DNA of 48,571 nt from an uncultured Fibrobacter sp. Lineage in GTDB: Bacteria; Fibrobacterota; Fibrobacteria; Fibrobacterales; Fibrobacteraceae. Shown here in pieces: positions 6,928 to 20,523 of the stretch. Under the pieces are notes generated by a model, which was not told where the DNA came from, made no database searches, and saw only the letters and a list, made by a program, of their open reading frames with translations. Both the position numbers and the translations under genes were made by a program. How positions within the stretch are numbered: position 1 is the first letter of the stretch; each line of letters opens with the position of its first letter. The DNA is taken from positions 1-48,571 of the forward strand of contig CAMJNF010000004.1 in NCBI GenBank assembly GCA_946407235.1, written 5' to 3'.

Positions 6928-7953
6928 TCACTTCTCTGGCTGCATTTCAAGCAGGTCCGCAGCAAGGGAGGCATCGTTCGGGAAATATTTTAAAGCGACA
7001 TTCAAGAGACGCACGGATTCCTCGTCGCGTTTTTGCGCGTGGGCATCGTAGGCCATGTTCTTGAAACCAAAGACGGCTTCTGCATTCCCGTTTTTAGCGG
7101 CAAGCTCGTAGGCATATTCGGCGCGGTCATAGAACTTGGCATCGTATGCGAGGTTTCCCATGAAGATGGCAGCATCAGAAAAATCGGGTTTGATTTGCAG
7201 AATGTTATTCAAGATTTCCATTGCAATGTAGGGCTTTTTATCTTCGGCGAGGACATCGGCAAGCTTGTACATAATTTGCGTGTCGTCGATTTTCACGCTG
7301 AGGGCTTCGCGGTAGGCGTTGGCGCTTTCTTCGAAATTCTTGTTCAGGCGGTATACGTCACCGAGGTAGACTAGGAAATCGGATTCTTCGGGATGGAGCG
7401 TGTAACCTTCGCGAATTACGGCAACGGCTCGGTCAAAGTCGTTCAAAGCGATATTCGCTTCGGAAAGTTGGTAGACAATGCTGACATCATTTTTGTCGAG
7501 GCGGTAAGCGTTTTCGATAGCGCGGAGGGCGCCGACTTTGTCGCCGGTTTTGGTGTAGGCTTCGCCGAGGTAAAGCCAGCCGGAAATGTTATCGGGGTCG
7601 AGTTTGAGCGCACGGTGGTAAACGGCAATGCATTCCGGGAACTGCTTTAAGCGGAAGTAGACGCTTGCCATGTTGAAAAGGGCAGGGGCAAAATTGCCTT
7701 CGGAATAGTCCACGGCTTTGCGGTAAGCGGCGGCCGCCTCGGGATATTTGTCCATCTGGTAATAGCTATTGGCAATGTTGAAACTCACGGCAACGGGATC
7801 GGCGCCGCGGTCTTCGGCCTTGCGGTACAAGAGGATAGCTTGCTTGAATTTCCCACTGCGATAAAGGGCGTTCGCGCGTTCCATCAAATCAAAGGACGAT
7901 TGCGCTGCAAACGACGACATTACAAAAAGCAAAACAAGAAAAAATGGTTTCAT
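6928..7953 (-). CDS. TPR-repeat periplasmic protein of the TonB energiser operon
   Basis: A 341-residue exported protein. A hydrophobic signal peptide (residues 1-17, ending SFAAQS) is followed by about eight tandem tetratricopeptide repeats, seen as recurring A..Y..A...DP/DN patterns (VSFNIANSYYQMDKYPEAAAAYRKA, ISGWLYLGEAYTKTGDKVGALRAIENA and others). TPR proteins act as scaffolds. In Vibrio-type TonB2 operons a TPR lipoprotein or periplasmic protein follows TonB and supports the energy-transduction complex, and this gene sits in the same place: its ATG lies 1 bp after the TonB stop. There is no lipobox cysteine, so it is probably soluble in the periplasm. Confidence 0.85.
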   Translation of the reverse strand: MKPFFLVLLFVMSSFAAQSSFDLMERANALYRSGKFKQAILLYRKAEDRGADPVAVSFNIANSYYQMDKYPEAAAAYRKAVDYSEGNFAPALFNMASVYFRLKQFPECIAVYHRALKLDPDNISGWLYLGEAYTKTGDKVGALRAIENAYRLDKNDVSIVYQLSEANIALNDFDRAVAVIREGYTLHPEESDFLVYLGDVYRLNKNFEESANAYREALSVKIDDTQIMYKLADVLAEDKKPYIAMEILNNILQIKPDFSDAAIFMGNLAYDAKFYDRAEYAYELAAKNGNAEAVFGFKNMAYDAHAQKRDEESVRLLNVALKYFPNDASLAADLLEMQPEK

Positions 7954-7954
7954 A

Positions 7955-8599
7955 CTAGTCTCTAAACTTCACTTCGAAGGGTTGTTCCATGCCGCAGAAA
8001 GCAACGGCTTTGCCGTCCTTTTCGGCGGGAGCAAAAGTCATACGAGCAACAGCATCCTTCCCCGCTTGCGCAAGCCCTGAACCTGCGGGAGATTCTTCGA
8101 TGACTTTGATATCATACGCGCGACCGCCAACATCCACGCAAAAACTGAGGCGGAGCATGGCATCTATTTCGCGGTCACGGATTTGCGGCGGCACCTGAAA
8201 GTTTGCGACAGAGCGGCTTTCGGGCTTTTTATCGACATCGCCTTTTTCAGTGGAGAGCGCGCCGCCTCGAAAATCGGCAACGAGCTCGCTATTGATGGCA
8301 GCACCCGCAGTTCCTGAAACGGCGCCAAGAGCCATGGCAAAACGCGGTCCCGCTTTGGGCGAGCGCGAATTGGACTTTTGGCGGTTTGGCTTGCGTGCGG
8401 TGCGTTTTTTCTCAATCTTCTTTTCGACTTCTTCAACTTTTTTCACGGAGACTTCGGTCTTGACGAATTTCTTTTCGTGGAAGATTTTACCCGTCAAGAA
8501 CAAGTTCGCCATCGTCACGGAGAATACGAGAACCATGCTCGCGAGAATCGCCGCGAGGAGGATTGAAAAACGCTTTAATAATTTCTTAAAAAGTTTCAT
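7955..8599 (-). CDS. tonB: TonB-family energy transducer
   Basis: A 214-residue inner-membrane protein spanning the periplasm. It has a short basic N-terminus, one membrane segment (about 11-34) and a Lys/Glu-rich linker (EVEKKIEKKRTARK), more charged than the Pro-rich linker of E. coli TonB. A C-terminal domain (about 135-214) follows, with the TonB_C pattern RLSFCVDVGGRAYDIKVIEES and A..A...M.FAPA...G. It would pass proton-motive-force energy from ExbB/ExbD to outer-membrane receptors. Two cysteines in the C-terminal domain (SFCVDV and AFCGME) could form a disulfide. A 185-bp repeat-bearing gap separates it from exbD, so it may be read from the operon or from an additional promoter. Confidence 0.85.
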   Translation of the reverse strand: MKLFKKLLKRFSILLAAILASMVLVFSVTMANLFLTGKIFHEKKFVKTEVSVKKVEEVEKKIEKKRTARKPNRQKSNSRSPKAGPRFAMALGAVSGTAGAAINSELVADFRGGALSTEKGDVDKKPESRSVANFQVPPQIRDREIDAMLRLSFCVDVGGRAYDIKVIEESPAGSGLAQAGKDAVARMTFAPAEKDGKAVAFCGMEQPFEVKFRD

Positions 8600-8784: not shown

Positions 8785-9189
8785 TCACTCCGCTTGGGCG
8801 GCGATGGAGACTTTTTTAACGCCCGCCAAATTGCACATATCAATGACCTGAACGAGCACGCCGGTTTCGGATTCCTTGTCGGCAATCACGACGGCTTCGC
8901 GGTCGGGCGCTTTCGCAAGAGACTGTTTCAAGATGTCTTGCAGGCTCGCCAAATCCACCTGGCGTTCATTCATGTGAATCGTACCTTCGCGCGTAATGGC
9001 GATGAGCAAGTTTTCTTTTTCCAGTTGGCTCGCCGATTGCGCCTGCGGTTTCGTCACATCGACACCCGTTTCGCGAGTGAACGACGACGTCACCACAAAA
9101 AAGATGAGCAAGATGAACACGATATCCATCAGCGGACCCATTTCAATGCCCACGTCTTTCTGTTTTCTTCTCGGTAAGTTAAATTTCAT
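8785..9189 (-). CDS. exbD: ExbD/TolR-type biopolymer transport protein
   Basis: A 134-residue inner-membrane protein. After a short cytoplasmic stretch (FNLPRRKQKDVGIEMGP) comes one transmembrane helix (about 19-40) beginning LMDIVFILLIFFVVTSSF. It carries the conserved proton-path Asp in the PLMDIVFILL motif (about residue 22). The C-terminal periplasmic domain has the usual ExbD pattern (LLIAITREGTIHMNERQVDLASL, VVIADKE, and CNLAGVKKVSIAA). It forms the stator with ExbB that powers TonB. It is co-directional with ExbB, 24 bp downstream of that gene, and the space between them is almost all repeat. Confidence 0.93.
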   Translation of the reverse strand: MKFNLPRRKQKDVGIEMGPLMDIVFILLIFFVVTSSFTRETGVDVTKPQAQSASQLEKENLLIAITREGTIHMNERQVDLASLQDILKQSLAKAPDREAVVIADKESETGVLVQVIDMCNLAGVKKVSIAAQAE

Positions 9190-9202: not shown

Positions 9203-9231
9203 GATTGCTTCGCCTACGGCTCGCAATGACG
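9203..9231 (-). repeat. Dispersed palindromic repeat overlapping the 3' end of exbB
   Basis: This is a second copy of the ATTGCTTCG...CGCAATGACG family. It supplies the last codons (translation TRHCEP) and the TAG stop of the ExbB reading frame, so the element appears to have inserted at the end of that gene. Confidence 0.7.
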
Positions 9232-9966
9232 AGTAATGCGAGATTCGTCTGCACAAGTCACATTAACGCAAAAATTGCTAGTACGAGCTGCAAAATAGTT
9301 GTCGATTACAGTGGCACCAAGTTCCATTTCTTGCTTGAGAATTTCAATGCGTTCATCCAAGCGTTGCTTCAAAAGCGTGAGCGGGAACGCAATCAAAAGT
9401 CCACTCTGCGTAGAAATCAGCGCTTCAGAAATTCCATCCGCCATCAATACGGGGTTTTGGTTACCGTATAAAGTAATCACTTCAAAAGTCGAAACCATTC
9501 CCGTCACCGTTCCAAGCAAGCCCAAGAGCGGAGCGGCAGCAGCCATCACAGAAACTATGTGGTTCCCTTGTTCCATATAACGCACGCTTTTCATCATACG
9601 AACTTGCATATAATTGCGAAACTCGTCATAGCTTTCCTGCGCAACTTCAATTGCATACGAAAGCTCTCGCGAAAGGAAGCCTCCACGTTTACGCAATCTC
9701 GTCAGAGCAATCGTTTCGCATTGTCCCGAAGATTTGCCGGAAGCAACATTTCCAGATGCAGAACCTTTCTCGGACAAATCTTTTTGCATTCGTTTAACGA
9801 CTTTATCAATATCATTTCTGAAAAAATCTCCACCAATGCGGAACCAGCTCGCAAAAAGGAAGTAGAACCCGACAACACCCGCCAAGAGAATGGGGAGCAT
9901 CACCACCCCACCCGCCTCGTACGTGTTCCGCAATGATTCTATGAATATGTAGTACGTGTTAGTCAT
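9214..9966 (-). CDS. exbB: ExbB/TolQ/MotA-type proton channel protein
   Basis: A 250-residue inner-membrane protein with three predicted membrane segments (about 18-36, 128-150 and 165-190). It carries the family core: VSVMAAAAPLLGLLGTVTGM, then the VEVITLYG-like turn and GISEALISTQSGLLIAFPL. It forms the pentameric stator ring around ExbD. It is the shorter of two TolQ-like proteins in the operon, as in TonB2 systems that pair ExbB2 with TtpC. The last six residues (TRHCEP) are encoded by a dispersed repeat, so the native C-terminus was probably different and the tail is not conserved sequence. The ATG lies 5 bp after the stop of the TtpC-like gene. Confidence 0.93.
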   Translation of the reverse strand: MTNTYYIFIESLRNTYEAGGVVMLPILLAGVVGFYFLFASWFRIGGDFFRNDIDKVVKRMQKDLSEKGSASGNVASGKSSGQCETIALTRLRKRGGFLSRELSYAIEVAQESYDEFRNYMQVRMMKSVRYMEQGNHIVSVMAAAAPLLGLLGTVTGMVSTFEVITLYGNQNPVLMADGISEALISTQSGLLIAFPLTLLKQRLDERIEILKQEMELGATVIDNYFAARTSNFCVNVTCADESRITRHCEP

Positions 9967-9971
9967 AAAGA

Positions 9972-11513
9972 CTACTTGCTTTCCTTTCCAAAGACTTTAT
10001 TCATAAGCGAGGTACTTTGCACGTAGAGTTCGCTGGTAATCTTTTCGATTTTTTCACTCAAGAGACCATGCAAAATCATCACCGGGATTGCAATGACAAG
10101 GCCCATTTCAGTCGTGATAAGCGCTTCGGAAATACCACCCGCCAACACGCGAGCATCATTCGTTCCAACTTCCGTAATCACGGTAAAGAGCGTAATGATA
10201 CCCGTCACCGTACCTAGCAAGCCCAAAAGCGGAGCGATCGTTCCCATAGCGGCAAGGAGGCCCATGCGGCGTTCGAGTTTCGGCTGTTCACGGAGCAAAG
10301 CTTCTTGCAAGGAGCGTTCCGCATTTTCGCGTGTATCGTTCACCTTGTTGAGCACCGCAAAAAGCACCATCGCAAGGCTCGTCTCTTTCTTGAGGCAAAG
10401 ATTGGCGGCTTCATCGTATTTTTTCTCGGCGACAAGCGCATCCATATTCTTGTTAAATCGACGGCCAAGATGACCACGATAAGAAAGCATCACGAAACGT
10501 TCAAGGAACAAGAGGAGCGCAATAATCGCCACAAGCATCAGCGGATACATCACAATTCCACCTTTCTTGAAAAACGCCTGGAATTTTTCAGTCCACGTGA
10601 GTTCCTTGACATCGGAAATGGAATTCTTGATTGCCTTGTTCTGCAGCACATCGAGAGGAATGGCGACAATCGCCCCCGAGGGTGAACCATTCGCAGCCCC
10701 AACTTGCGTCACAGCCTGCTTGATATTCTGCGAAATTTCTGCCGGGAGTTTCGCATTCCATTCAAAGACCTTACCTTGCAATGCACCCGAACGCATAAGC
10801 GATTGTACATCGCCATTGTCGCTAGCCACTTCGCCAAGGAACACAGTTCCCAAGCGCAAGCGATTCACGTTCACATCGGGGCGAGAGCCCACCTGCGAAA
10901 TTTCGTGGCCATAAGTTTGCGTATAAGTGACTTCGTGGCGTTTCAGCAAATCATCCATAAAGCCCTGCACCGCAGCAATCGTGTTCGGCACTTTCTTTTC
11001 GGCTTCAATGTTAGCCTGTTTCAAGCGCAAAAGGCGCGCATTCATTCCGACCGGATAATCGCCTGCGACATCGCCAAGCGTCTTTTCAATCGAAAGCTTC
11101 ACCTGCGTATTGAGGGCATCAAAAGCGATCTCTTCACCCTTAGATTTTTCTTCGGCCTCTTCGGTGACGCTCTTGCTCGACATCGCTTCTTCGGTAATGC
11201 GGCCAAGATCCGTTGAAAGCTTGGAATAACGGCCATCAAGTTCACGCGTTTTGTTCTGGTGTTCTTCCGTCATCTGCGATTCGGCATAGCGGTTGCTCCA
11301 GTGCTTGGCATCGAGCTTTTCGAGGGAATCCGCTTTTTGCATGCGGATGCGAGTGAGCGTTTCAACTTCGCGCTGCAAATTGCGAACTTCGACTTGCAAC
11401 AAAGAATCCTTGATTCTGGCTTCGTCTTCGGCGTTTTTCTTGTCACTTGACCACGGCCATGCAAATGCAGAAGATGCAAGCATTAACAGGAGCGCAAAAA
11501 CAATTCGATGCAT
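9972..11513 (-). CDS. TtpC-like TolQ protein with long periplasmic N-terminal domain
   Basis: The inner-membrane protein has 513 residues from the ATG at 11513, where a clean signal peptide begins (MHRIVFALLLMLASSAFAW). Residues about 20-330 form a periplasmic domain with coiled-coil at its start (LQVEVRNLQREVETLTRIR). The C-terminal third is a complete TolQ/ExbB module with a membrane helix (GGIVMYPLMLVAIIALLLF) and the core APLLGLLGTVTGIITLF and GISEALITTEMGLVIAIP. TtpC of Vibrio has this architecture and is needed for its TonB2 system. The frame is open upstream to 11603, and an ATG at 11600 overlaps the DUF3450 stop behind a GGAGG site. That would add 29 repeat-encoded residues before the signal peptide, so which start is used is uncertain. 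Confidence 0.88.
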   Translation of the reverse strand: MHRIVFALLLMLASSAFAWPWSSDKKNAEDEARIKDSLLQVEVRNLQREVETLTRIRMQKADSLEKLDAKHWSNRYAESQMTEEHQNKTRELDGRYSKLSTDLGRITEEAMSSKSVTEEAEEKSKGEEIAFDALNTQVKLSIEKTLGDVAGDYPVGMNARLLRLKQANIEAEKKVPNTIAAVQGFMDDLLKRHEVTYTQTYGHEISQVGSRPDVNVNRLRLGTVFLGEVASDNGDVQSLMRSGALQGKVFEWNAKLPAEISQNIKQAVTQVGAANGSPSGAIVAIPLDVLQNKAIKNSISDVKELTWTEKFQAFFKKGGIVMYPLMLVAIIALLLFLERFVMLSYRGHLGRRFNKNMDALVAEKKYDEAANLCLKKETSLAMVLFAVLNKVNDTRENAERSLQEALLREQPKLERRMGLLAAMGTIAPLLGLLGTVTGIITLFTVITEVGTNDARVLAGGISEALITTEMGLVIAIPVMILHGLLSEKIEKITSELYVQSTSLMNKVFGKESK

Positions 11514-11514
11514 A

Positions 11515-11547
11515 GATTGCTTCGCTGCTTCGCGGCTCGCAATGACG
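11515..11547 (-). repeat. Dispersed palindromic repeat at the start of the TtpC-like gene
   Basis: Third copy of the ATTGCTTCG...CGCAATGACG family, ending 2 bp upstream of the signal-peptide ATG at 11513. It is in frame with the coding region. Confidence 0.7.
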
Positions 11548-11560
11548 TTTTTCGACATTC

Positions 11561-11597
11561 TAAATTCCGAATTCCTAATTCCTAATTCCGAATTAAA
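11561..11597 (-). repeat. Low-complexity repeat of AATTCGGAATTAGG units
   Basis: Tandem copies of an aattcc(g/t)aatt unit lie between the DUF3450 stop and the palindromic repeat. Together with that repeat they separate a good GGAGG ribosome site from the signal-peptide start of the TtpC-like gene. Confidence 0.6.
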
Positions 11598-11599
11598 CA

Positions 11600-12430
11600 T
11601 CACTTATTTCCTCCCACAACAGAAAGGCTTACAGGTAAGTTCACGATCTGAGGCGGCTTTTTCGCCTGTTTCACGTCAATTGCAAGCTTTACTGCAGCGC
11701 GTTCCTCCAAATCCAAGTTTTCATTCCATTCATAAACGACTTTACCGTTTTCCAACTTGCGTCCCAAGCGTCCATACACGGAGCCGTTTTCATCGACATA
11801 AACCATCCACTGGTTCCCAATGCGGAGAATCGTAGCATTCACGATTTCGCCATCCTTGCGAGTGAGCGGGCTATTGACAATCGCGACTTCGTCACCGAAC
11901 TTGATTTCTTCGCCAAGCAAAGACTTGAGGCGAGAAAAAGCTTCTTCTTCGGAGGCATTGCCACTCTCGATTTCTCGAGTGAGCGACTTGGCACGATCCA
12001 GGCGGCTTTCGCGTTCCCACGGGAGCGTCTGTGCAATTTGCGCTTCTAGCTTTTTACTGATTTTTGCAAGTTCCAAACGCAATGCGCGGCGCTTTGCAGC
12101 CACATTTTCACTGCGGTTTTTAGCACGAGCTTGCTTATTACGTTCCTGCTGGAGGGTTGCAGCCACCTTGCGGATTTTAGCATTCAAGCTATCAATTTCC
12201 GCATGTCGCCGATCCGAATCTGCCTTGTAACGCTGTTCCAGAACTTGATGGCGAGACACATCTGCACGTAGCATAGAATCTGTCGCTGCAATTTTCTTGT
12301 TCAACGTTTGAATTTCAGAATTCAACTTTTCTTTTTGCATTTTTAAATCACGAATCTCAGACTCGTAATCCGCAAAAGCATTCACCGCCAAAAAGGCTGA
12401 CATCAAGATAAAAATAAGTTTCTTTTTCAT
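11600..12430 (-). CDS. DUF3450-like periplasmic coiled-coil protein
   Basis: A 276-residue exported protein, first gene of the TonB energiser operon. The signal peptide is MKKKLIFILMSAFLAVNAFA. Residues about 22-150 form a long coiled coil (SEIRDLKMQKEKLNSEIQTL; IDSLNAKIRKVAATLQQE). A mixed alpha/beta domain follows, with LGEEIKFGDEVAIVN, ATILRIGNQWMVYVDENGSVYGRL and YEWNENLD. DUF3450 proteins precede TtpC/ExbB2/ExbD2/TonB2 in many Gram-negative genomes and are thought to be part of that complex; a precise role is not known. ATG 12430 is preferred because AGGTGA precedes it. A GTG at 12436 is an alternative, only 1 bp from the shared 34-bp motif. Confidence 0.82.
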   Translation of the reverse strand: MKKKLIFILMSAFLAVNAFADYESEIRDLKMQKEKLNSEIQTLNKKIAATDSMLRADVSRHQVLEQRYKADSDRRHAEIDSLNAKIRKVAATLQQERNKQARAKNRSENVAAKRRALRLELAKISKKLEAQIAQTLPWERESRLDRAKSLTREIESGNASEEEAFSRLKSLLGEEIKFGDEVAIVNSPLTRKDGEIVNATILRIGNQWMVYVDENGSVYGRLGRKLENGKVVYEWNENLDLEERAAVKLAIDVKQAKKPPQIVNLPVSLSVVGGNK

Positions 12431-12437
12431 ATTCACC

Positions 12438-12471
12438 TATGTAACACCTGAGCAATTAAAATTTGTCACCA
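12438..12471 (-). promoter_or_regulatory. Shared 34-bp regulatory motif, copy 3 (TonB energiser operon)
   Basis: On the minus strand the site reads TGGTGACA, 15 bases, then GGTGTTACATA, the same spacing as the copies at 16712-16745 and 20490-20523. It fits an ECF-type promoter (-35 GGTGACA, 16-bp spacer, -10 GTGTTAC) or a two-half-site operator. It ends 1 bp before the alternative GTG start of the DUF3450 gene. Confidence 0.7.
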
Positions 12472-12509
12472 CAAAATTGAAAATTTAATTTTCTTTAAAA
12501 CAAGCCTCT

Positions 12510-14270
12510 TTAATCTACAGCATGAGTTACTCCCGTCACAATTGTTGAAGGATTAACACCATCCATACCACTTTCATGCTTGTAGCCTAAATCTTCGCAA
12601 ACAGCGTATTCCTCATGAAACGGGCTTTCGCACCACCTTTTAACTTCTTTTTCCCAAAGAGTCGATTTCAAACCGCCCACAACATAGCGGCTTACCATCG
12701 CAGGCCCACATTGCGGATACTTTTCGTAATTCCAATTGCGATCAGAGCACCACAACCACAAATATGAATTACATTCATTTCTCGACAAGCTATCCAGACA
12801 TTGCGCCTTTAAACTTGAACAACTTGCGATATCATTATCTTTAAAATTGCTGGCTACGCAATAACGTTTTAGCCCATCAGCATAAGCCACTGCTTTTTGC
12901 TCAGCGCTGATAGAATCTGGCAAATACTCACTCCAAGAAACAACATCCCAAAGATCCATTTTTTGCATCATAGCAGCCTTCACAAGAGAGGGGTAACAAG
13001 TTTCATCATCCTTGCGGTAATAGAGATTGCTCCCTCCGTAAAGTTTATACGCCTCTTCATTAGCAGATTCCAAATCGCTCGAAGGGCCTTCCCCAGCACA
13101 ATAAAGATCTAAATAAAGTCTACAACCTTTCGAATCCCAGCCCTTTGAATTATCTCCTTCTTCATTTTTACAAAGCCTGTTCGCAACATGTTGCATGTTC
13201 ACCCAATTTTCAGAGTTAATCTTCATAAATACCGTTGTACGAGCCATTCCCGTAAAAACGCCCATTCCGTTTTCAATATTAGATTCAGGAACAACGCGAG
13301 AATCCGCAACAGACTGTTTTACCTTATCTATATAATCAATATATGCTTCATCTGTCGAATAAAGATCTACTGAAATCTCGCCCACCGGAAGCATCATGTT
13401 CGTCAAGTGAAGAGTATCCAAATTTTTGATACCACCCACTATATAATTTGCGGCATACCCAAGATTCAACTGAGTTTCCAAAGGATCGTGCATTGCAATG
13501 CCGCGGTAGCCACTTTCATCTTCAGTGGTAAAGCCTTCAAACATTTTATTGACGGTCGTGTTCGTCGCTTCACCATTCTTGGAACCATAATTCATTATGG
13601 ATAAAACGCCACGGACAGAATGGTCATAGTCTAAAGCAGCTCTCACAAATTCCATATCCATCGGATATTCCAAGAAATCCATTTCTACCACATCGCCTTC
13701 GCTATATTCCACCCATTCAAAACTACCATCTTGCTTGGGGATATTGAAGCCCTTGACTTTCACAGGATTTGGAATTGTCGCTTTGGCCCTGTACGTCGAT
13801 TCCACATTATGACCCGCGCTATCCCATTCAAATGTCGCTTCGAGCTTGTACGTTTCGCCAGCAATACCTGTATAATTTGGCTTACATGTCGCATTTCCAC
13901 CAACGAGATAAATGCAACGAGAAACCTTGTTTGACGATGGATAAAAGCATCCTGGATTGTCATGAGAAGATTCAAGACGAATGGTTTCATCTTCACCGGT
14001 ACCAAATTCACCTCCAAAGCGCCCCTGCAAAGTCACCTTGGCATAATTATAAAACGCAAAACTTTCTGCCGAAGTTTCATCGAGTTCATATACTTTCGAG
14101 AAGCACACTTCCGGTCTTTCATCTGCGACAACAAAACCATAAGTGTAAATGCCTGTATAAACATCGCGCTCTTCGGGATAATATTCCCATGGGCCATGAA
14201 AATCGCAAGCAGCAAGCAGTAAACCAACCACTAACCACCAACCACTAATCACTTTAAAAATAGTATTCAT
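12510..14270 (-). CDS. DUF4249-like outer-membrane lipoprotein, partner of TonB receptor
   Basis: A 586-residue lipoprotein. The signal peptide ends in the lipobox LLAAC with the acylated Cys at residue 22. The N-terminal half has beta-sandwich character with strand patterns such as YTYGFVVADERPEVCFSKVYEL and YKLEATFEW, resembling DUF4249 proteins that sit next to TonB receptors in Bacteroidota. The C-terminal part (about 380-586) is rich in Cys and aromatic residues (WLWCSDRNWNYEKYPQCGP) and is not recognised. Its start overlaps the receptor's 3' end by 17 bp, so the two are co-translated and probably form a surface complex. Residues about 7-17 (ISGWWLVVGLL) are encoded by a low-complexity repeat. 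The specific DUF assignment is moderate. Confidence 0.72.
   Translation of the reverse strand: MNTIFKVISGWWLVVGLLLAACDFHGPWEYYPEERDVYTGIYTYGFVVADERPEVCFSKVYELDETSAESFAFYNYAKVTLQGRFGGEFGTGEDETIRLESSHDNPGCFYPSSNKVSRCIYLVGGNATCKPNYTGIAGETYKLEATFEWDSAGHNVESTYRAKATIPNPVKVKGFNIPKQDGSFEWVEYSEGDVVEMDFLEYPMDMEFVRAALDYDHSVRGVLSIMNYGSKNGEATNTTVNKMFEGFTTEDESGYRGIAMHDPLETQLNLGYAANYIVGGIKNLDTLHLTNMMLPVGEISVDLYSTDEAYIDYIDKVKQSVADSRVVPESNIENGMGVFTGMARTTVFMKINSENWVNMQHVANRLCKNEEGDNSKGWDSKGCRLYLDLYCAGEGPSSDLESANEEAYKLYGGSNLYYRKDDETCYPSLVKAAMMQKMDLWDVVSWSEYLPDSISAEQKAVAYADGLKRYCVASNFKDNDIASCSSLKAQCLDSLSRNECNSYLWLWCSDRNWNYEKYPQCGPAMVSRYVVGGLKSTLWEKEVKRWCESPFHEEYAVCEDLGYKHESGMDGVNPSTIVTGVTHAVD
14224..14252 (-). 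repeat. Low-complexity repeat AGTGGTTGG/TGGTTAG encoding a signal peptide core
   Basis: Repeated ccaacca/ctaacca units on the plus strand form the hydrophobic core of the DUF4249-like lipoprotein's signal peptide (VISGWWLVVG). A simple repeat seems to have been taken into coding use. Confidence 0.6.
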
Positions 14271-16689
14271 AATTCAACATAATCGGTAAAAAGGGGAACT
14301 GAGAAATTTCTGTTTTCTTCGGAGGATTTTTACGCGTATCGTAGAAAGTATAGAACATGTTGTCGTGATTAGTCAAGTTGATAATCGTCCAACTAAAATT
14401 CCACTTGCCTTCACGGCCCATATCTACAGCTTTCAAATCAATACGGAAGTAATCCGTTTGGCGGCCCGCATTGCGGCTTCCTGGAAGAACAACGACTTCA
14501 TCCGAATATCTCTGGTGCCCTATATCTTGCGAAACATAATATCCTTTGTATTCACTGATTGGCATACCCGACGAATATTTTAGCGCAAGCGACGAGCGGA
14601 AATAACGACCTTTTTTCTTGTGTCTCCAAAGGGCATCATCACCGCCCTTCCAGTTAATACCAAGATCCAACTTTAATGCATACGGCTGATGCCAACTCGG
14701 GAAATAAGCCTTTGTACCGTCATTTGTTCGCGCAACACTAAGACTTTGGCTCCAGTTGATTCCGCCAAACCACCAGCCTTTATCTTTACGGAGTGAAAGT
14801 TCGTAACCAAGGGAATAGCCTTCTGCCGTACCAAAACCATCTGCAATCACAAAATCATCCGATGCCGTTTCTTCATTACTATCAAGAACCGCCTTAAACG
14901 TGTTCAAATTGTCTTGCGTTTTGTAATAAACGCCCGCCGTAAAATCGTAGCCTTCAAAGAGATCGCGTTGGCTATATTCCGCAGCAAACAACCATGATGA
15001 CGACGGTTTTGTCTGTTTTCCCTTCGTTGTTGTCGTTGCCGGGTAATAAAATTCGTTCAACGTTTCTTGGTCTGTATAGACAATCGAATTCAAGTATTGC
15101 AAATAGTAACCGCCATAAAGTTCCAGCGACTTTGTATCATCGAGATTGATGTTCAGCGAGGCGCGCGGTTCCACACCAAAATGCGCTGCAGCCGTTTGAT
15201 AATTGAAACGCAAACCATATTGCAACAAGTAATCGGGATTTATTTTCCATGCATCTTGCACATAAGCGACATGATGGAAAGTTTTTTGAATGTCCTTAAT
15301 TGTCATCGAAGCCATCGCTTCTTGATAACGTTCATAGTCATATTCAAGTTCATAACCCAAAGTAAACGTATGGTTGTCAATGCCGCGATAATTGAGCCAC
15401 TGCTTACCCGCAAATGTATAGAGGAACATATCAATTGACATGAGGTCGCTAACCTTCATCGTCTGGTAGAATTTACTGTAAGCGAGCGTTGCATTGTAAT
15501 CCCAATCGCCATTGATGCGGTGGTAGAATCCAAGCGGAATCGCAATGTTTCCCCAGTCCATGTAAAGCGGGTCAAATTCCAAGCGATCCTTGCCAATGTA
15601 ATAGCTGAACTTGAGTCGGGTATCTTTAGAAAAGTCGTACATAAATGTACCCTGCAAGTCCGTAAATTCATAATCGAGATCAAGGTCCAAAAGCCCAATG
15701 GCATTGCACAAATCAAGAATGTAGCCAATGTAAGTTGTGCGCCCCGCAAACACCCAGCGCGCCGGCCCTTGATGACCTTCAGTATGGAGTTGTGCTGCGA
15801 ACGTACTGATTTTAATGCTTGTCTTGCTAAACCATTCATTTACGGAATCTTGACCGCCAGCGCGACCATCCATCTTGAGCACAGAACTTAAACGATTGCC
15901 GTACTGCGCCGGGAATCCGCTCTTGTAGAACTGCACATCGTCAATACCTTCAACAAGGAACGTGCTGAACAGTCCAAAGAAATGCACCGGAGAATAAACA
16001 ACAGCATTGTCAAACAAGAACAAGTTCTGGTCGGCAGCTCCGCCACGCACATAAATCTTGGAACTGAAATCGGAGCTTGCGACAACGCCTGGGAGCGCCT
16101 GGATGCTCTTAATCACGTCGGCTTCGGCAAGGCCCGGCATGCGTTTGATAGACTTTGCGCTCACCACGGATTCACCCGGTTTGCGCTTGGGGCGACGGCG
16201 CAACTGCACCACGACTTTCTTGAGTTCGGTCACTTTCGAATTCGGGCCACCCGAAGCGAGAAGCTTTTCTACATCGACATCGGAGGAATCCGACGAAGAC
16301 TTCACTGGATCCTTCGACTCCGCTTGCGCTTCAGCACGACCGTTCGAAATAGTTTCTTCAACCGTGACAGCGCCGGGGCCAAGCGTCATGCTGAAGGTGC
16401 TATCGCTACCAAGATAAAGGAGCTCATAGCATTTTTCCTTTTCGGCACCAGCCGTATCGGAATTTGTGACACAGATGTTCCAAAGCGTATCTTCCGGGAG
16501 CACTACGCTGAATGGCGTCCCGATGGTTGTCTGCAGCGCTTCTCCTGTTTCCAGGATTTCGACATTCAGCTTCTCGCCCGCTTCAAAAGAGGAGTCCTGC
16601 ACAATTCCATTAAAGACAATGCTATCGCGAGCAGCGGCAAACGCCACCACCATCGACACAAGAGCTACTATTCTCAACATAAAATTCAT
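14254..16689 (-). CDS. TonB-dependent outer-membrane receptor
   Basis: An 811-residue receptor from the ATG at 16689. That start is preferred because a signal peptide begins there (MNFMLRIVALVSMVVAFAAA) and an AAAGGAA site lies upstream. A small beta domain (about 20-110) and a Ser/Asp-rich linker (KSSSDSSDVDVEKL) lead to the plug domain (about 170-290), recognisable by VSAKSIKRMPGLAEADVIKSIQ split as MPG..DV.KSIQALPGV, then YVRGGAADQNLFLFDNAVVY. The rest is a 22-strand-type barrel ending in aromatic YEYYF. The substrate is unknown; the plug resembles receptors of the FecA/CirA class only in general terms. It is first in an operon with the DUF4249-like lipoprotein and lies just below a copy of the shared 34-bp motif. 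Confidence 0.9.
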   Translation of the reverse strand: MNFMLRIVALVSMVVAFAAARDSIVFNGIVQDSSFEAGEKLNVEILETGEALQTTIGTPFSVVLPEDTLWNICVTNSDTAGAEKEKCYELLYLGSDSTFSMTLGPGAVTVEETISNGRAEAQAESKDPVKSSSDSSDVDVEKLLASGGPNSKVTELKKVVVQLRRRPKRKPGESVVSAKSIKRMPGLAEADVIKSIQALPGVVASSDFSSKIYVRGGAADQNLFLFDNAVVYSPVHFFGLFSTFLVEGIDDVQFYKSGFPAQYGNRLSSVLKMDGRAGGQDSVNEWFSKTSIKISTFAAQLHTEGHQGPARWVFAGRTTYIGYILDLCNAIGLLDLDLDYEFTDLQGTFMYDFSKDTRLKFSYYIGKDRLEFDPLYMDWGNIAIPLGFYHRINGDWDYNATLAYSKFYQTMKVSDLMSIDMFLYTFAGKQWLNYRGIDNHTFTLGYELEYDYERYQEAMASMTIKDIQKTFHHVAYVQDAWKINPDYLLQYGLRFNYQTAAAHFGVEPRASLNINLDDTKSLELYGGYYLQYLNSIVYTDQETLNEFYYPATTTTKGKQTKPSSSWLFAAEYSQRDLFEGYDFTAGVYYKTQDNLNTFKAVLDSNEETASDDFVIADGFGTAEGYSLGYELSLRKDKGWWFGGINWSQSLSVARTNDGTKAYFPSWHQPYALKLDLGINWKGGDDALWRHKKKGRYFRSSLALKYSSGMPISEYKGYYVSQDIGHQRYSDEVVVLPGSRNAGRQTDYFRIDLKAVDMGREGKWNFSWTIINLTNHDNMFYTFYDTRKNPPKKTEISQFPFLPIMLNYEYYF

Positions 16690-16711
16690 TACAATTTCAA
16701 TTCCTTTCCCC

Positions 16712-16745
16712 AATGGAACACTTGAAGATACAAAAAGTGTTACCA
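16712..16745 (-). promoter_or_regulatory. Shared 34-bp regulatory motif, copy 2 (TonB receptor operon)
   Basis: The minus strand reads TGGTAACACTTTT, 10 bases, then AGTGTTCCATT. It matches the copy before the sigma factor gene in both blocks and in spacing. The receptor start lies 22 bp downstream, leaving room for a short leader with a ribosome site. Confidence 0.72.
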
Positions 16746-16827
16746 CTTAATGCAAAAATTTATCTTTTTTACGTTTTCTTCAGATTCTTGAGAGTCGGAG
16801 CAAGGCTTCCAAAGTGTACAAATAAAG

Positions 16828-16860
16828 AAGAATCCAGCACGCACAACGTACTGGATTCTT
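16828..16860 (-). terminator. Rho-independent terminator of the sigma/anti-sigma/caspase operon
   Basis: Perfect 10-bp arms aagaatccag (16828-16837) and ctggattctt (16851-16860) lie 22 bp after the caspase-like stop. On the minus strand a T-rich stretch (CTTTATTTG) follows. Confidence 0.75.
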
Positions 16861-16882
16861 GATTTTGTATTATATAGCCCTT

Positions 16883-19198
16883 TTAGAATTTACCCAAAGT
16901 AAGTCCGGCATAGAATCCTGGCCACCAACGGCCCTTATGATTTTTATGGCTAACATCGTCATGGTAGTTGCCAAGCGGTTTCAGCGGGAGCTTATTCAAA
17001 TAACCTTCGCTCGTCAAGTTCAGCGTTCCGCCCACAGAAAGCCCGAAGAACGGCAACACTTGGTACACATAGCCTATACGGCCGCGGTGATGGAATCCAC
17101 TTTTTAAATCATCCTTATCATCGAGATTCAATTTATCATAGACGCAAAAGAATGTGTATTCCAGTTCAAAATGGCTTCCGTATTTACCGAACTGAGTTCC
17201 AAATCCAATACCGCTTTCATTGATATCCCGGAAATGCCTAAAGAGTGAACCTTTTTTAAACAAGCGAGCCCATTCCAAATTCGTGTAGAAATAAGCTGTA
17301 CCCAAGTGAGTCGAGACCCCTAGCGCCCCCATTTCGTTAATATAAGGAGTCGCGCTCCACACACCATTACCAACTATGTTAACAAGACCAACCGGGGATT
17401 TTTCGCAATTTGCGCAAATGTTCACAATACCCCACTGGCGACCTTTTTCCTTCGTGGCATAGTTCACTACACCAATCTGGAGTTTATTATTTTCGTTAGC
17501 AACGTTCACACCGCCCGCCACCTGAATATCGTTTTCCTTGGCGGCATTAACACCCGCTGCAATTTGGAGATTTGCAGTTCTTGCGGCGTTGACACCTGCA
17601 ACGACTTGCATATTCGTCGTTTTTGCGGCATTCACACCTGCGGTCACCTGAAATTTTGTTTCCTTAGCGTAGTTCACACCAGCAGAAATCTGAAATCCCT
17701 CAAGCGAATCAATCGCCAAGTTCACAATACCAATTTGGGCACCAGATGATTTATACCTTGAGAAGTTCACAGCAGAACTTATTTGAGCACCGTCAAATGA
17801 TCCCGCATAGTTGAACGCTGTAGAAATTTGAGCACCTTCAAAACGATGTTTTGCAAAGTTCACACCAGTCGTTATCTGCAATCCGTGCATTTCTTTTTGG
17901 GCAATGTTTGCCGCCAAGCTGAGTTGAGATCCAAGCATGTAATCTTTAGTGCGAGTTACAAGCAATCCCACCTGCACACCCTTACGAGGCTCTTTGTCAA
18001 CATCAACAAAATTAAAGGTTGTGCGAGATTTTCCGTTTCGGTCCAAGGAATCAAGCGAGCAAGCAACGGAATCGCCCTCCGCACATGTCCCGCGACGTTT
18101 CAATTCACCACGGAGAACCGTCTGTTCTGCCACAACGCTCTTGAAATCATCAATTGAAATCTTTTCTTGTTTTCCATTTGCAAGTATCACGGACGTTCCC
18201 ATGTAATCGGCTCTCTGCTGGAGATTCACCGTATAACGCCCCGCAGGAAGTCCAAGGCTTATCGCGCGGCCACGTTTTTTATTCAGTTCCGCAACAAGTT
18301 CACCTTCGGCATCACGAATATAAAGGCGACCATACACGTTTTCATCAAAATCAAGCCCAGCTCCAGTCGCACGCAAGTCCGTCATCACCACGTCACCGGT
18401 TCCCGCAAGATTCATATCACGGCTCGGATGCTGTGCGCCGCCCATCGTTGTTTCGGTTTTTTGGAGCGTTTCGTTAAACGCGAACTGATAGGCTTCGGAC
18501 AAAGTCACTTTTCCATCGTTACTCAAGTCACCCGCACCACGCAGCCCACTGACCAAGGAATGGGTAAAGAACGATCCCTTAAGCTTGTCGCTTTCTTGGC
18601 TGGATTCATCTTGAGTACTACTCGTGATAAAAGCATAGCCCTTCATATCGCTACTTTGGTCCACCATGAACGCAGGCACCGCCTTACCGCCCTTCACACG
18701 GGTAATCGCGCCAGAACCACAAGCGTCAATCACAGCAATTTTCACATCGGCAGAGAGAGCATCAATGCGGTTACGCAAATCCCTCCATGCGTAAGTTTCT
18801 GCACCTAAGCGGAGGCCCGTTTCATCGGCATGGCCACTGTAATAAACAAGCACTTCATCGCGACCGCCAGAATTCTTGTCCTGTAAAATCTTTGCATCAA
18901 GATTTGAAAATTCTTTTTGCAACGAAGTCACAGACGGTTCGCGTACCAAAATCACGTTCTGCGGTTGCACGCCGCCCATTTCCTTAAGCACCTTAGCAAA
19001 AGAACGGGCATCACTTTCAGCATAACGCAACATCGGTCGCCCCGCACCACCATTATTTGCACTAACAGCAATGACATAGCGGTTAATTCGGTTGGATTCT
19101 GCAGCATTCGCATTCGAGGCCAAGAGCAACAGCACTAAAAGAAACATAGCCGACAGCACAGAAAAAATTCCAAGATCTTTATTCGAACAGAAAAACAT
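16883..19198 (-). CDS. Caspase-like protease with surface repeats and C-terminal outer-membrane-like domain
   Basis: A 771-residue exported protein. A membrane/signal segment (about 11-33, ending SNANAAES) precedes a peptidase C14 (caspase) domain of about 38-260. The catalytic His is in YYSGHAD (His123) and the Cys in VIDACGSGA (Cys160), so the dyad is intact. A beta domain (about 290-360) resembling a PEGA module follows (GRAISLGLPAGRYTVNLQQ). Residues about 420-620 carry about a dozen near-identical 14-residue units (QVVAGVNAARTANL, QIAAGVNAAKENDI), matching the surface repeats seen in LA_2272-type proteins. The last 150 residues look like outer-membrane beta strands ending in GKF. It is the last gene after sigma and anti-sigma factors, its ATG sharing one base with their stop. 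Substrate unknown. Confidence 0.85.
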   Translation of the reverse strand: MFFCSNKDLGIFSVLSAMFLLVLLLLASNANAAESNRINRYVIAVSANNGGAGRPMLRYAESDARSFAKVLKEMGGVQPQNVILVREPSVTSLQKEFSNLDAKILQDKNSGGRDEVLVYYSGHADETGLRLGAETYAWRDLRNRIDALSADVKIAVIDACGSGAITRVKGGKAVPAFMVDQSSDMKGYAFITSSTQDESSQESDKLKGSFFTHSLVSGLRGAGDLSNDGKVTLSEAYQFAFNETLQKTETTMGGAQHPSRDMNLAGTGDVVMTDLRATGAGLDFDENVYGRLYIRDAEGELVAELNKKRGRAISLGLPAGRYTVNLQQRADYMGTSVILANGKQEKISIDDFKSVVAEQTVLRGELKRRGTCAEGDSVACSLDSLDRNGKSRTTFNFVDVDKEPRKGVQVGLLVTRTKDYMLGSQLSLAANIAQKEMHGLQITTGVNFAKHRFEGAQISTAFNYAGSFDGAQISSAVNFSRYKSSGAQIGIVNLAIDSLEGFQISAGVNYAKETKFQVTAGVNAAKTTNMQVVAGVNAARTANLQIAAGVNAAKENDIQVAGGVNVANENNKLQIGVVNYATKEKGRQWGIVNICANCEKSPVGLVNIVGNGVWSATPYINEMGALGVSTHLGTAYFYTNLEWARLFKKGSLFRHFRDINESGIGFGTQFGKYGSHFELEYTFFCVYDKLNLDDKDDLKSGFHHRGRIGYVYQVLPFFGLSVGGTLNLTSEGYLNKLPLKPLGNYHDDVSHKNHKGRWWPGFYAGLTLGKF

Positions 19199-19983
19199 TA
19201 TTTACCCGCCTTTTTGAGAGTAAAACCAACCACCTTCACGTCACTTCTCTTGAGCAACTTATCGACATCATTTTCTTCTATAGAAAATTCATCCGAAGAC
19301 GTTACAAAGAAGAACTTTTCAAAATAAGGAGCATCGTCCAATTTATACGCAAACGGAAGAGAGTTCATCTTTCCGGGAGCAAGTTCAATGGATTTTTCAC
19401 CATTTCCCATGTGGATAGTCAACGCGCCATTGCCGTCCATGCTAAAAAGGAGACCAAAGCATTTTTCAGGAACGGCATAGCGCAATTGAATTTCGTCGCC
19501 TTCGGCTACTTCGTCAAAATCGTTTAATTGAACAATCCCAGCCGATGTTTTTTTCCAAACTTCCATACGCGCACCAAGTCCCTTGATTCGTGTGTCCGAC
19601 GGCGTTTCAGCAAGAGCGACTTGCGTATTTTGCGAGCCACCGACAGCAGCAACATTGCTACCCACGCGTTCGTTCATCACGGAAGTTTCACGCTGCGCCA
19701 TAAAGGCAACCAAAGCGACAGCCAAAACAAACACGGCAGCAGCGGCAAACTTCATAAGAGTAAAGCTCGGCGCATTTTTCGCAGCAGTATCAGTTACCGT
19801 TCCAAGATTCGCGGCGATTTTTTCAAACGGCAACCTATTCAAAATCGCCTTATTGTCTTCACGGAGCATTTTCACGCGTTGCGCAAGCATTTCATCCGTC
19901 AACTCGAGCTTGCCAATCTCGCGCATTTCCTGTTCGGGCAAATCGCCAGTCAGGAACCGTTCTAATTTCCAATCGGGGATCAT
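19198..19983 (-). CDS. Membrane-anchored anti-sigma-like protein with DUF4384-like sensor domain
   Basis: A 261-residue single-pass protein. The cytoplasmic N-terminus (about 1-70) starts IPDWKLERFLTGDLPEQEM, the kind of short zinc-less helical domain that anti-sigma factors use to hold ECF sigma factors. One membrane helix spans about 78-95. The periplasmic part (about 140-258) has GDEIQLRYAVPEKCFGLLFSMDGNGALTIHMG followed by SLPFAYKLD, resembling DUF4384 domains often found with caspase-like proteins. An ATG (19983) overlaps the sigma stop as TGATG behind a GGAGGTAAAG site; a GTG at 19986 is the alternative. It would sense an envelope signal and release the sigma factor; this is inference from context. 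Confidence 0.78.
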   Translation of the reverse strand: MIPDWKLERFLTGDLPEQEMREIGKLELTDEMLAQRVKMLREDNKAILNRLPFEKIAANLGTVTDTAAKNAPSFTLMKFAAAAVFVLAVALVAFMAQRETSVMNERVGSNVAAVGGSQNTQVALAETPSDTRIKGLGARMEVWKKTSAGIVQLNDFDEVAEGDEIQLRYAVPEKCFGLLFSMDGNGALTIHMGNGEKSIELAPGKMNSLPFAYKLDDAPYFEKFFFVTSSDEFSIEENDVDKLLKRSDVKVVGFTLKKAGK

Positions 19984-20486
19984 CACTTTACCTCCAGATT
20001 TTTTACCTTCGCCTGTAAACCGCGCAAACGCTTACGAACACCGCTTACCGAAAGCCCAACTTCGCGGGCAGTCTCTTCAAGCGTCATGCCATCGACAAAA
20101 TGGAGTACCGCCATAGTACGGCTCGATTCTGGTTCTTTCGAAAAGAGCTTGGCTAGCACGCTTTTGGTTTCGTAATCGTCGCGTTCGTCTTCAACGCACG
20201 CAATATTCAAAAGCAAACTCGAAGAATCGACATCAAGTCCACGACGACGCTTGTCACGAATACGGTTCAGGCAAAGCCTTGTTGCCGTATTCCATAAAAG
20301 GCTGCTCGGCGATTCCATGTTCAAACGATCCGTTGCAGAATAAATCCGCAAGAAAACGTCTTGCATGAGATCGCTAGCCTCTGCATCATCTCGAAGGAGT
20401 TGCAAGCAGCGTCTATAAACCATAGGCGCATACTTTTCGTAAATCTTCGCAAATTCTGCTTTTTTTAAGGTTTCTAGGCTTTTCAC
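19983..20486 (-). CDS. ECF-family RNA polymerase sigma factor
   Basis: A 167-residue sigma-70 factor of the extracytoplasmic-function class with only regions 2 and 4. Region 2 is visible as FAKIYEKYAPMVYRRCLQLLRDDAEASDLMQDVFLRIY with the -10-binding helix around residues 30-65. Region 4 (about 110-165) has the helix-turn-helix LEETAREVGLSVSGVRKRLRGL. The start is a GTG at 20486-20484; no ATG is available before the conserved region, and no clear ribosome site is seen. The shared 34-bp motif ends 3 bp upstream of this GTG, so if it is the promoter the mRNA is nearly leaderless. Translation of the anti-sigma gene is coupled. Likely autoregulated; target operons are proposed from the motif copies. 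Confidence 0.93.
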   Translation of the reverse strand: MKSLETLKKAEFAKIYEKYAPMVYRRCLQLLRDDAEASDLMQDVFLRIYSATDRLNMESPSSLLWNTATRLCLNRIRDKRRRGLDVDSSSLLLNIACVEDERDDYETKSVLAKLFSKEPESSRTMAVLHFVDGMTLEETAREVGLSVSGVRKRLRGLQAKVKNLEVK

Positions 20487-20489
20487 GTT

Positions 20490-20523
20490 TATGTAACACC
20501 GGAGGTATTTAAAAGTGTTACCA
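20490..20523 (-). promoter_or_regulatory. Shared 34-bp regulatory motif, copy 1 (sigma factor operon)
   Basis: On the minus strand TGGTAACACTTTT, then 10 bases, then GGTGTTACATA. GTAACAC and GTGTTAC are exact inverted repeats with a 15-bp centre. Read as an ECF promoter it gives -35 GGTAACA, a 16-bp spacer and -10 GTGTTAC. It is 3 bp from the GTG start of the sigma gene. Confidence 0.75.

Follow-up and report, generated by a model that had tools for sequence, protein, structure and literature searches.

The window, that is, the whole stretch of DNA analyzed (48,571 nucleotides), derives from an uncultured rumen-type Fibrobacter assembly of 2.94 Mb that is 72% complete. Three operons were examined on its minus strand, and by Pfam their gene content was as an earlier sequence-only reading had stated, with the DUF4249 match falling below its cut-off and the anti-sigma factor having no Pfam match. 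The first operon encodes an ECF sigma factor of 167 amino acids with a GTG start (19983 to 20486; PF04542 and PF08281 above cut-off, NCBIfam TIGR02937), a predicted membrane anti-sigma factor (19198 to 19983), and a secreted caspase-like (C14) protein (16883 to 19198; PF00656). The second encodes a TonB-dependent receptor (14254 to 16689; PF07715 plug) and its partner, a DUF4249-like lipoprotein (12510 to 14270; PF14054, E value of 1.2e-5). The third consists of a DUF3450 coiled-coil protein (11600 to 12430; PF11932), a TtpC-type MotA/TolQ/ExbB protein (9972 to 11603; PF01618), ExbB (9214 to 9966; PF01618), ExbD (8785 to 9189; PF02472), TonB (7955 to 8599; PF03544), and, in last place, a TPR protein (6928 to 7953) matched by NCBIfam TPR-repeat families, whose position is kept in relatives. 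The order DUF3450, TtpC, ExbB, ExbD, TonB, TPR is that of the TtpC-type TonB2 systems known from Vibrio, from which the present operon differs in lying behind a predicted ECF promoter common to the receptor and caspase operons. Judging from these protein families, the system would serve signaling and uptake.

The sigma protein has the composition of an ECF (group IV) factor, with regions sigma2 and sigma4 only in a protein class of about 170 to 200 amino acids, and scored 81.7 bits against 42.9 for TIGR02937. An orthologue was present in nearly all same-genus genomes searched. As is usual for ECF factors, its promoter is predicted to be autoregulated and the next gene, which is conserved and encodes a membrane helix, is the probable anti-sigma factor. 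The AF2 model of the latter (mean pLDDT 83.7) comprised helices at residues 4 to 69 and 74 to 97 (predicted cytoplasmic helices and one transmembrane helix), a disordered linker around residues 100 to 127, and then a well-predicted periplasmic beta domain. Class I anti-sigma factors are defined by an N-terminal helical sigma-binding domain plus a transmembrane helix; no family model matched the helices here. The window protein had no Pfam match at an E value of ≤1e-3, and 27 of 37 orthologues matched DUF4384 at a lenient E value of ≤0.1. Against the PDB, the model gave generic Ig-like matches only, with a best Z score of 9.2 over 103 residues. Residues R132, K134, and G135, located at the border of the disordered linker, were invariant in all 37 sequences.

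The caspase-like protein begins with a hydrophobic signal segment and belongs to peptidase family C14 by both fold and His/Cys dyad. PF00656 was matched with 44 bits against 21.4, and the dyad H123/C160 (within SGH and DACGSG) was invariant in 44 sequences. Fold matches to caspases and metacaspases, those listed covering residues 36 to 277 only, had VIA Z scores of 19.5 to 21. Pfam called no CHAT domain on this protein. LA_2272-type surface repeats (NF047436) were detected, and the C-terminal part is beta-rich and usually ends in G-R/K-F, with the C-terminal Phe typical of outer membrane barrels, so that it is probably an outer membrane beta-barrel. Two further residues, D63 and D158, were likewise invariant in the 44 sequences; in an alignment with Arabidopsis metacaspase 4, they fall on its LRGCVND and DSC motifs. 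In metacaspases, these aspartates line a pocket for Arg or Lys and confer a preference for these residues. Bacterial caspase homologues, few of which have a known function, are frequently considered in connection with cell death. In this case, a conserved promoter appears to connect a secreted homologue with a defined signaling module.

All three copies of a claimed 34-bp motif were found on the minus strand with identical internal spacing, and the proposed 16-bp spacer was also right. Predicted ECF promoter 1, the putative autoregulatory one (20490 to 20523), has a -35-like GGTAACA, a 16-nt spacer, and a -10-like GTGTTA, and transcription from it is predicted to begin at, or close to, the GTG with which the sigma gene opens. 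Predicted promoters 2 (16712 to 16745) and 3 (12438 to 12471) precede the receptor and DUF3450 genes, respectively; the copy at promoter 2, AAGTGTTCCATT, has one mismatch to the core pattern. The distance from motif end to start codon is a few nucleotides in operons 1 and 3 and approximately 23 nt in operon 2. When up to 3 mismatches were allowed, the window contained 4 matches versus 0.26 expected from shuffling, the largest number in any shuffle being 2. Across the whole assembly, only these three sites were found with 0 or 1 mismatch. A site with 2 mismatches on contig 146 was dismissed as a probable chance match, since the surrounding sequence reads as a coding region on the opposite strand. 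The TonB energizer had been described as dedicated, which fits as regards co-regulation: of four ExbD matches in the assembly, only the ExbD of this operon lies behind the motif. The comparative genomics set out below supports the view that the motif, GGTRACA-N16-GTGTT, is a promoter used by the linked ECF sigma factor.

For relatives, a trimmed pattern (GGTRACANNTTTN11GTGTTNNA) was used. With at most 1 mismatch, 125 matches were found across 37 genomes of the same genus, versus 14 for the reversed pattern, and the exact pattern occurred in 72/151 Fibrobacterota genomes with none for the reversed control. The possibility that scattered sites were chance matches was rejected on the basis of these controls. 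To test for chance and relatedness, sites were also counted protein first, with ≤2 mismatches allowed within 200 nt upstream and only distinct upstream regions considered. Conservation at orthologous loci, which the sequence-only reading had named as a check, was borne out, the motif preceding the sigma gene in 60/60 distinct Fibrobacter regions. It was also found before 34/38 TonB receptor genes, 31/35 DUF3450 genes, and 4/30 DUF4249 genes, the last being the split cases, although the motif itself had been the reason for including some of the separated-operon loci in this count. When only loci chosen by the sigma protein were considered, the figures were 22/25 for the receptor and 15/19 for DUF3450; in two of these four DUF3450 misses, a more divergent motif with unchanged spacing can be made out by eye. 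The same count found no motif before the anti-sigma, caspase, TtpC, ExbB, ExbD, TonB, or TPR genes and none in the in-gene control. In alignments of orthologous regions, the motif core reached approximately 1.9 bits versus 0.2 to 0.4 bits upstream, for sites picked by the motif. Outside the genus, motif occurrence largely tracked the sigma orthologue.

The strongest evidence for the predicted regulon is the retention of the motif after unlinking. The receptor or TonB operon of several Fibrobacter species is separated from the sigma gene, at times on another contig, and yet retains the motif; the same promoter maintained on genes far apart points to a real and ancient regulon. A repeat search with the pattern covered six genomes of Fibrimonadaceae and their relatives. 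In four genomes of termite-gut Fibrimonadaceae, the caspase gene was unlinked from the sigma gene and every time had a motif of its own, followed 5 nt later by an ATG. In a fifth genome of the set, the caspase gene adjoins the anti-sigma gene yet has its own motif. The DUF3450, TonB receptor, and DUF4249 genes of this set each had their own motif as well, and the DUF4249 gene had one where it was split from the receptor. In the Fibrimonas genome G162 (2.0 Mb, probably incomplete), sigma and anti-sigma were present with no caspase match. From the motifs on separated genes, the regulon would consist of sigma, anti-sigma, caspase, receptor, DUF4249, and the TtpC-type TonB system. The description of this system as self-contained was not exact, since related species add NADPH-dependent FMN reductase genes. 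Genes of this family (about 200 and 400 amino acids) were found behind the motif in many Fibrobacter species (L054:1630-2223, L056:16835-17437, L071, L076, L078, and L086), and none was seen with the motif in the incomplete assembly of the window.

The sigma start codon, ATG or GTG, is located exactly 5 nt after the motif at 57/57 distinct Fibrobacter sites, and the distance is the same for the caspase genes of Fibrimonadaceae and for most sigma genes elsewhere in Fibrobacterota. Given the -10-like GTGTTA, this spacing would place the start of transcription at about the start codon and predicts a leaderless sigma mRNA in Fibrobacterota. The prediction concerns a group in which we know of no mapped transcription starts. 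In Latescibacterota, the start codon is further off, behind a Shine-Dalgarno-like stretch. The distance from the motif to the start is 5 nt in some genes but tens of nucleotides in others, which is at odds with a translation element.

Relatives of the sigma factor with about 50 to 60% identity were found in metagenome-assembled genomes (MAGs) labeled Latescibacterota, Gemmatimonadota, Myxococcota, and Vicinamibacteria, and the sigma/anti-sigma/caspase module with a related promoter in MAGs labeled Latescibacterota, Gemmatimonadota, Myxococcota, and Acidobacteriota. Among distant loci with sufficient downstream sequence, nearly all continue with genes for the same anti-sigma factor and caspase, and most have a recognizable motif upstream of the sigma gene. 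Some distant loci appeared to be without a caspase, which was partly an artifact of the ORF caller. In a 6.3-Mb Latescibacteria chromosome, the sole match to the local pattern was before the sigma gene. The module occurs in these phyla without an obvious receptor beside it; being present with a related promoter in several phyla, it has a core that predates the uptake regulon.

The best explanation overall, to which we assign a probability of roughly 0.8, is that the motif serves as promoter for the ECF sigma factor encoded at 19983 to 20486, which would govern an anti-sigma-held, self-amplifying regulon. The assignment of promoter, sigma factor, and regulon to one another is in itself very likely, as judged from comparative sequence data. 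ECF factors are normally under anti-sigma control. In the resting state, the sigma factor would be held at the inner membrane by the anti-sigma factor; a periplasmic or outer membrane event would then release it, and transcription of its own gene would amplify the response. The promoter, its targets, and its conservation have strong sequence support, and binding of the motif by the sigma factor, inhibition by the anti-sigma factor, leaderless initiation, and substrate uptake are expectations of the model. Complete Fibrobacter genomes have only 3 to 5 plug-domain receptors, so this uptake route would represent a sizeable share of TonB transport.

Within this regulon, the caspase may be an output or an input. 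As an output, it would be a surface or periplasmic protease that acts on envelope proteins, foreign proteins, or the cargo of the receptor and is produced alongside the receptor that it serves, and other site-1/site-2 proteases would release the anti-sigma factor. This role, which we rate at slightly under an even chance, agrees with the retention of the regulon promoter by caspase genes unlinked from sigma and anti-sigma, as expected of regulon targets, and with the surface repeats and probable outer membrane barrel, which may tether the protein far from the inner membrane anti-sigma factor. Against it, the caspase is the most constant partner of sigma and anti-sigma across phyla, including on the chromosome without another matching site, and such constancy suggests a role inside the circuit. 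As an input, the caspase would cut the anti-sigma factor in its periplasmic linker, a more speculative and only tentatively held idea. It is suggested by the invariant R132-x-K134-G135 at the border of the disordered linker, by the alignment of D63 and D158 with the metacaspase aspartates, and by the precedent of Csx29 and Csx30 (PMC10028731). The R-x-K-G residues could also be a structural part of the DUF4384-like domain, and the caspase's own promoter where it is unlinked fits an effector as well as a pathway protease. The Fibrimonas genome G162, with sigma and anti-sigma but no caspase match, also speaks against the input role, subject to its probable incompleteness. The full scheme, in which a secreted and probably outer membrane-anchored caspase is the signaling protease of a multi-phylum envelope ECF pathway, cuts the anti-sigma linker (e.g., at R-x-K-G), frees the sigma factor, and in this way activates its own gene as well as, in Fibrobacterota, a whole TonB uptake machine via leaderless promoters, is on present evidence somewhat unlikely.

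Classical FecI/FecR/FecA signaling, with the TonB receptor as transducer to the anti-sigma factor, was considered because receptor and sigma factor adjoin and share regulation, but it is very improbable. FecR was not among the Pfam matches of the window anti-sigma factor (E value of ≤1e-3) or of its 37 orthologues (E value of ≤0.1), and the receptor matched only plug and barrel at ≤1e-3, with no STN domain, although a very divergent STN could escape detection; the failure to find either domain disfavors this route. Moreover, receptor and sigma genes are often far apart, the distant phyla have the module without an obvious receptor alongside, and, unlike in the Fec system, the sigma factor is predicted to drive a caspase and a whole TonB energizer as well. 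That the motif is instead an RNA leader element, or the operator for some unlinked regulator, and stands at the sigma gene only incidentally is very unlikely: its half-sites GTRACA and GTGTTAC are, by eye, partly inverted repeats of each other in the manner of operators, but the fixed 16-nt spacing with a GTAAC-like -35 and a short -10, the fixed start-codon distance on sigma genes, and the large degree to which occurrence tracks the sigma orthologue across families and phyla all argue against this reading.

The earlier statement that no such system had been described requires qualification, as two of its parts were already known. Sigma-70/metacaspase predicted operons were listed for Myxococcus, Anaeromyxobacter, Haliangium, Sorangium, Ralstonia, and Fibrobacter by Asplund-Samuelsson et al. 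in 2012 (PMC3501461). They share with the present locus a sigma factor and a caspase homologue in one predicted operon; the passages of that paper on these operons give an operon prediction, without promoter, anti-sigma topology, or a link to TonB, receptor, or FMN reductase. Similarly, BT2172-BT2173 is a TonB receptor/DUF4249 pair in a conserved operon, like the one here, with no cargo stated and no ECF-caspase control mentioned in the relevant text of the source (PMC11003636). In the CASP system (PMC10028731), the caspase-like protease Csx29 cuts the anti-sigma factor Csx30 of CASP-sigma. There, as here, a caspase-type protease, an anti-sigma factor, and an ECF sigma factor are encoded together, with sigma motifs in their own locus; the CASP protease is a TPR-CHAT protein activated by CRISPR/Cas7-11, whereas here a secreted C14 protein with surface repeats accompanies a predicted transmembrane anti-sigma factor. 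A literature search, with the main ECF classification outside it, found no paper combining Fibrobacter, ECF sigma factor, and caspase, nor any account of the promoter, of the regulon and its retention after unlinking, or of how widely the anti-sigma/caspase module is spread. In Fibrobacterota, which include major rumen cellulose degraders, a secreted caspase would thus be linked by its promoter to nutrient uptake, and the proposed regulon offers a list of targets, a promoter testable with reporters, and a specific guess at a protease substrate.

Several minor features were observed near the motif. In sigma upstream regions (L049 to L068), a Bacteroidetes-type TANNTTTG box often lies just upstream of the ECF -35; such boxes were modestly enriched (16 versus 6.5, SD 2.4, in partly redundant sequences) and are possibly a second, basal housekeeping promoter. 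In many Fibrobacter species outside the clade of the window, the predicted receptor mRNA opens with a hairpin of near-perfect pairing and then a T run (GCAAATAGG..CCTATTTGCTATTTTT; L142:13560-13636, L065:14512-14588, L054:16068-16144, and 11 others). Compensatory changes were seen in L054 and L065, and an unrelated hairpin occupies this position in L141, L150, and L154. The hairpin could be a 5' stabilizing stem, an attenuator, or a terminator. The predicted 5' end of the DUF3450 and DUF4249 leaders (e.g., L075:2526-2545 and L084:2070-2090) reads ATGTAA, a start-stop pair at about the predicted transcription start that many species keep. In one Fibrimonadales genome (L215:1501-1975), the motif precedes a small secreted protein of 145 amino acids, DUF2141-like by eye. 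Finally, two more near-identical motif sites lie after the caspase operon on a Latescibacteria chromosome (L191 and L192), before a repeated short sequence.
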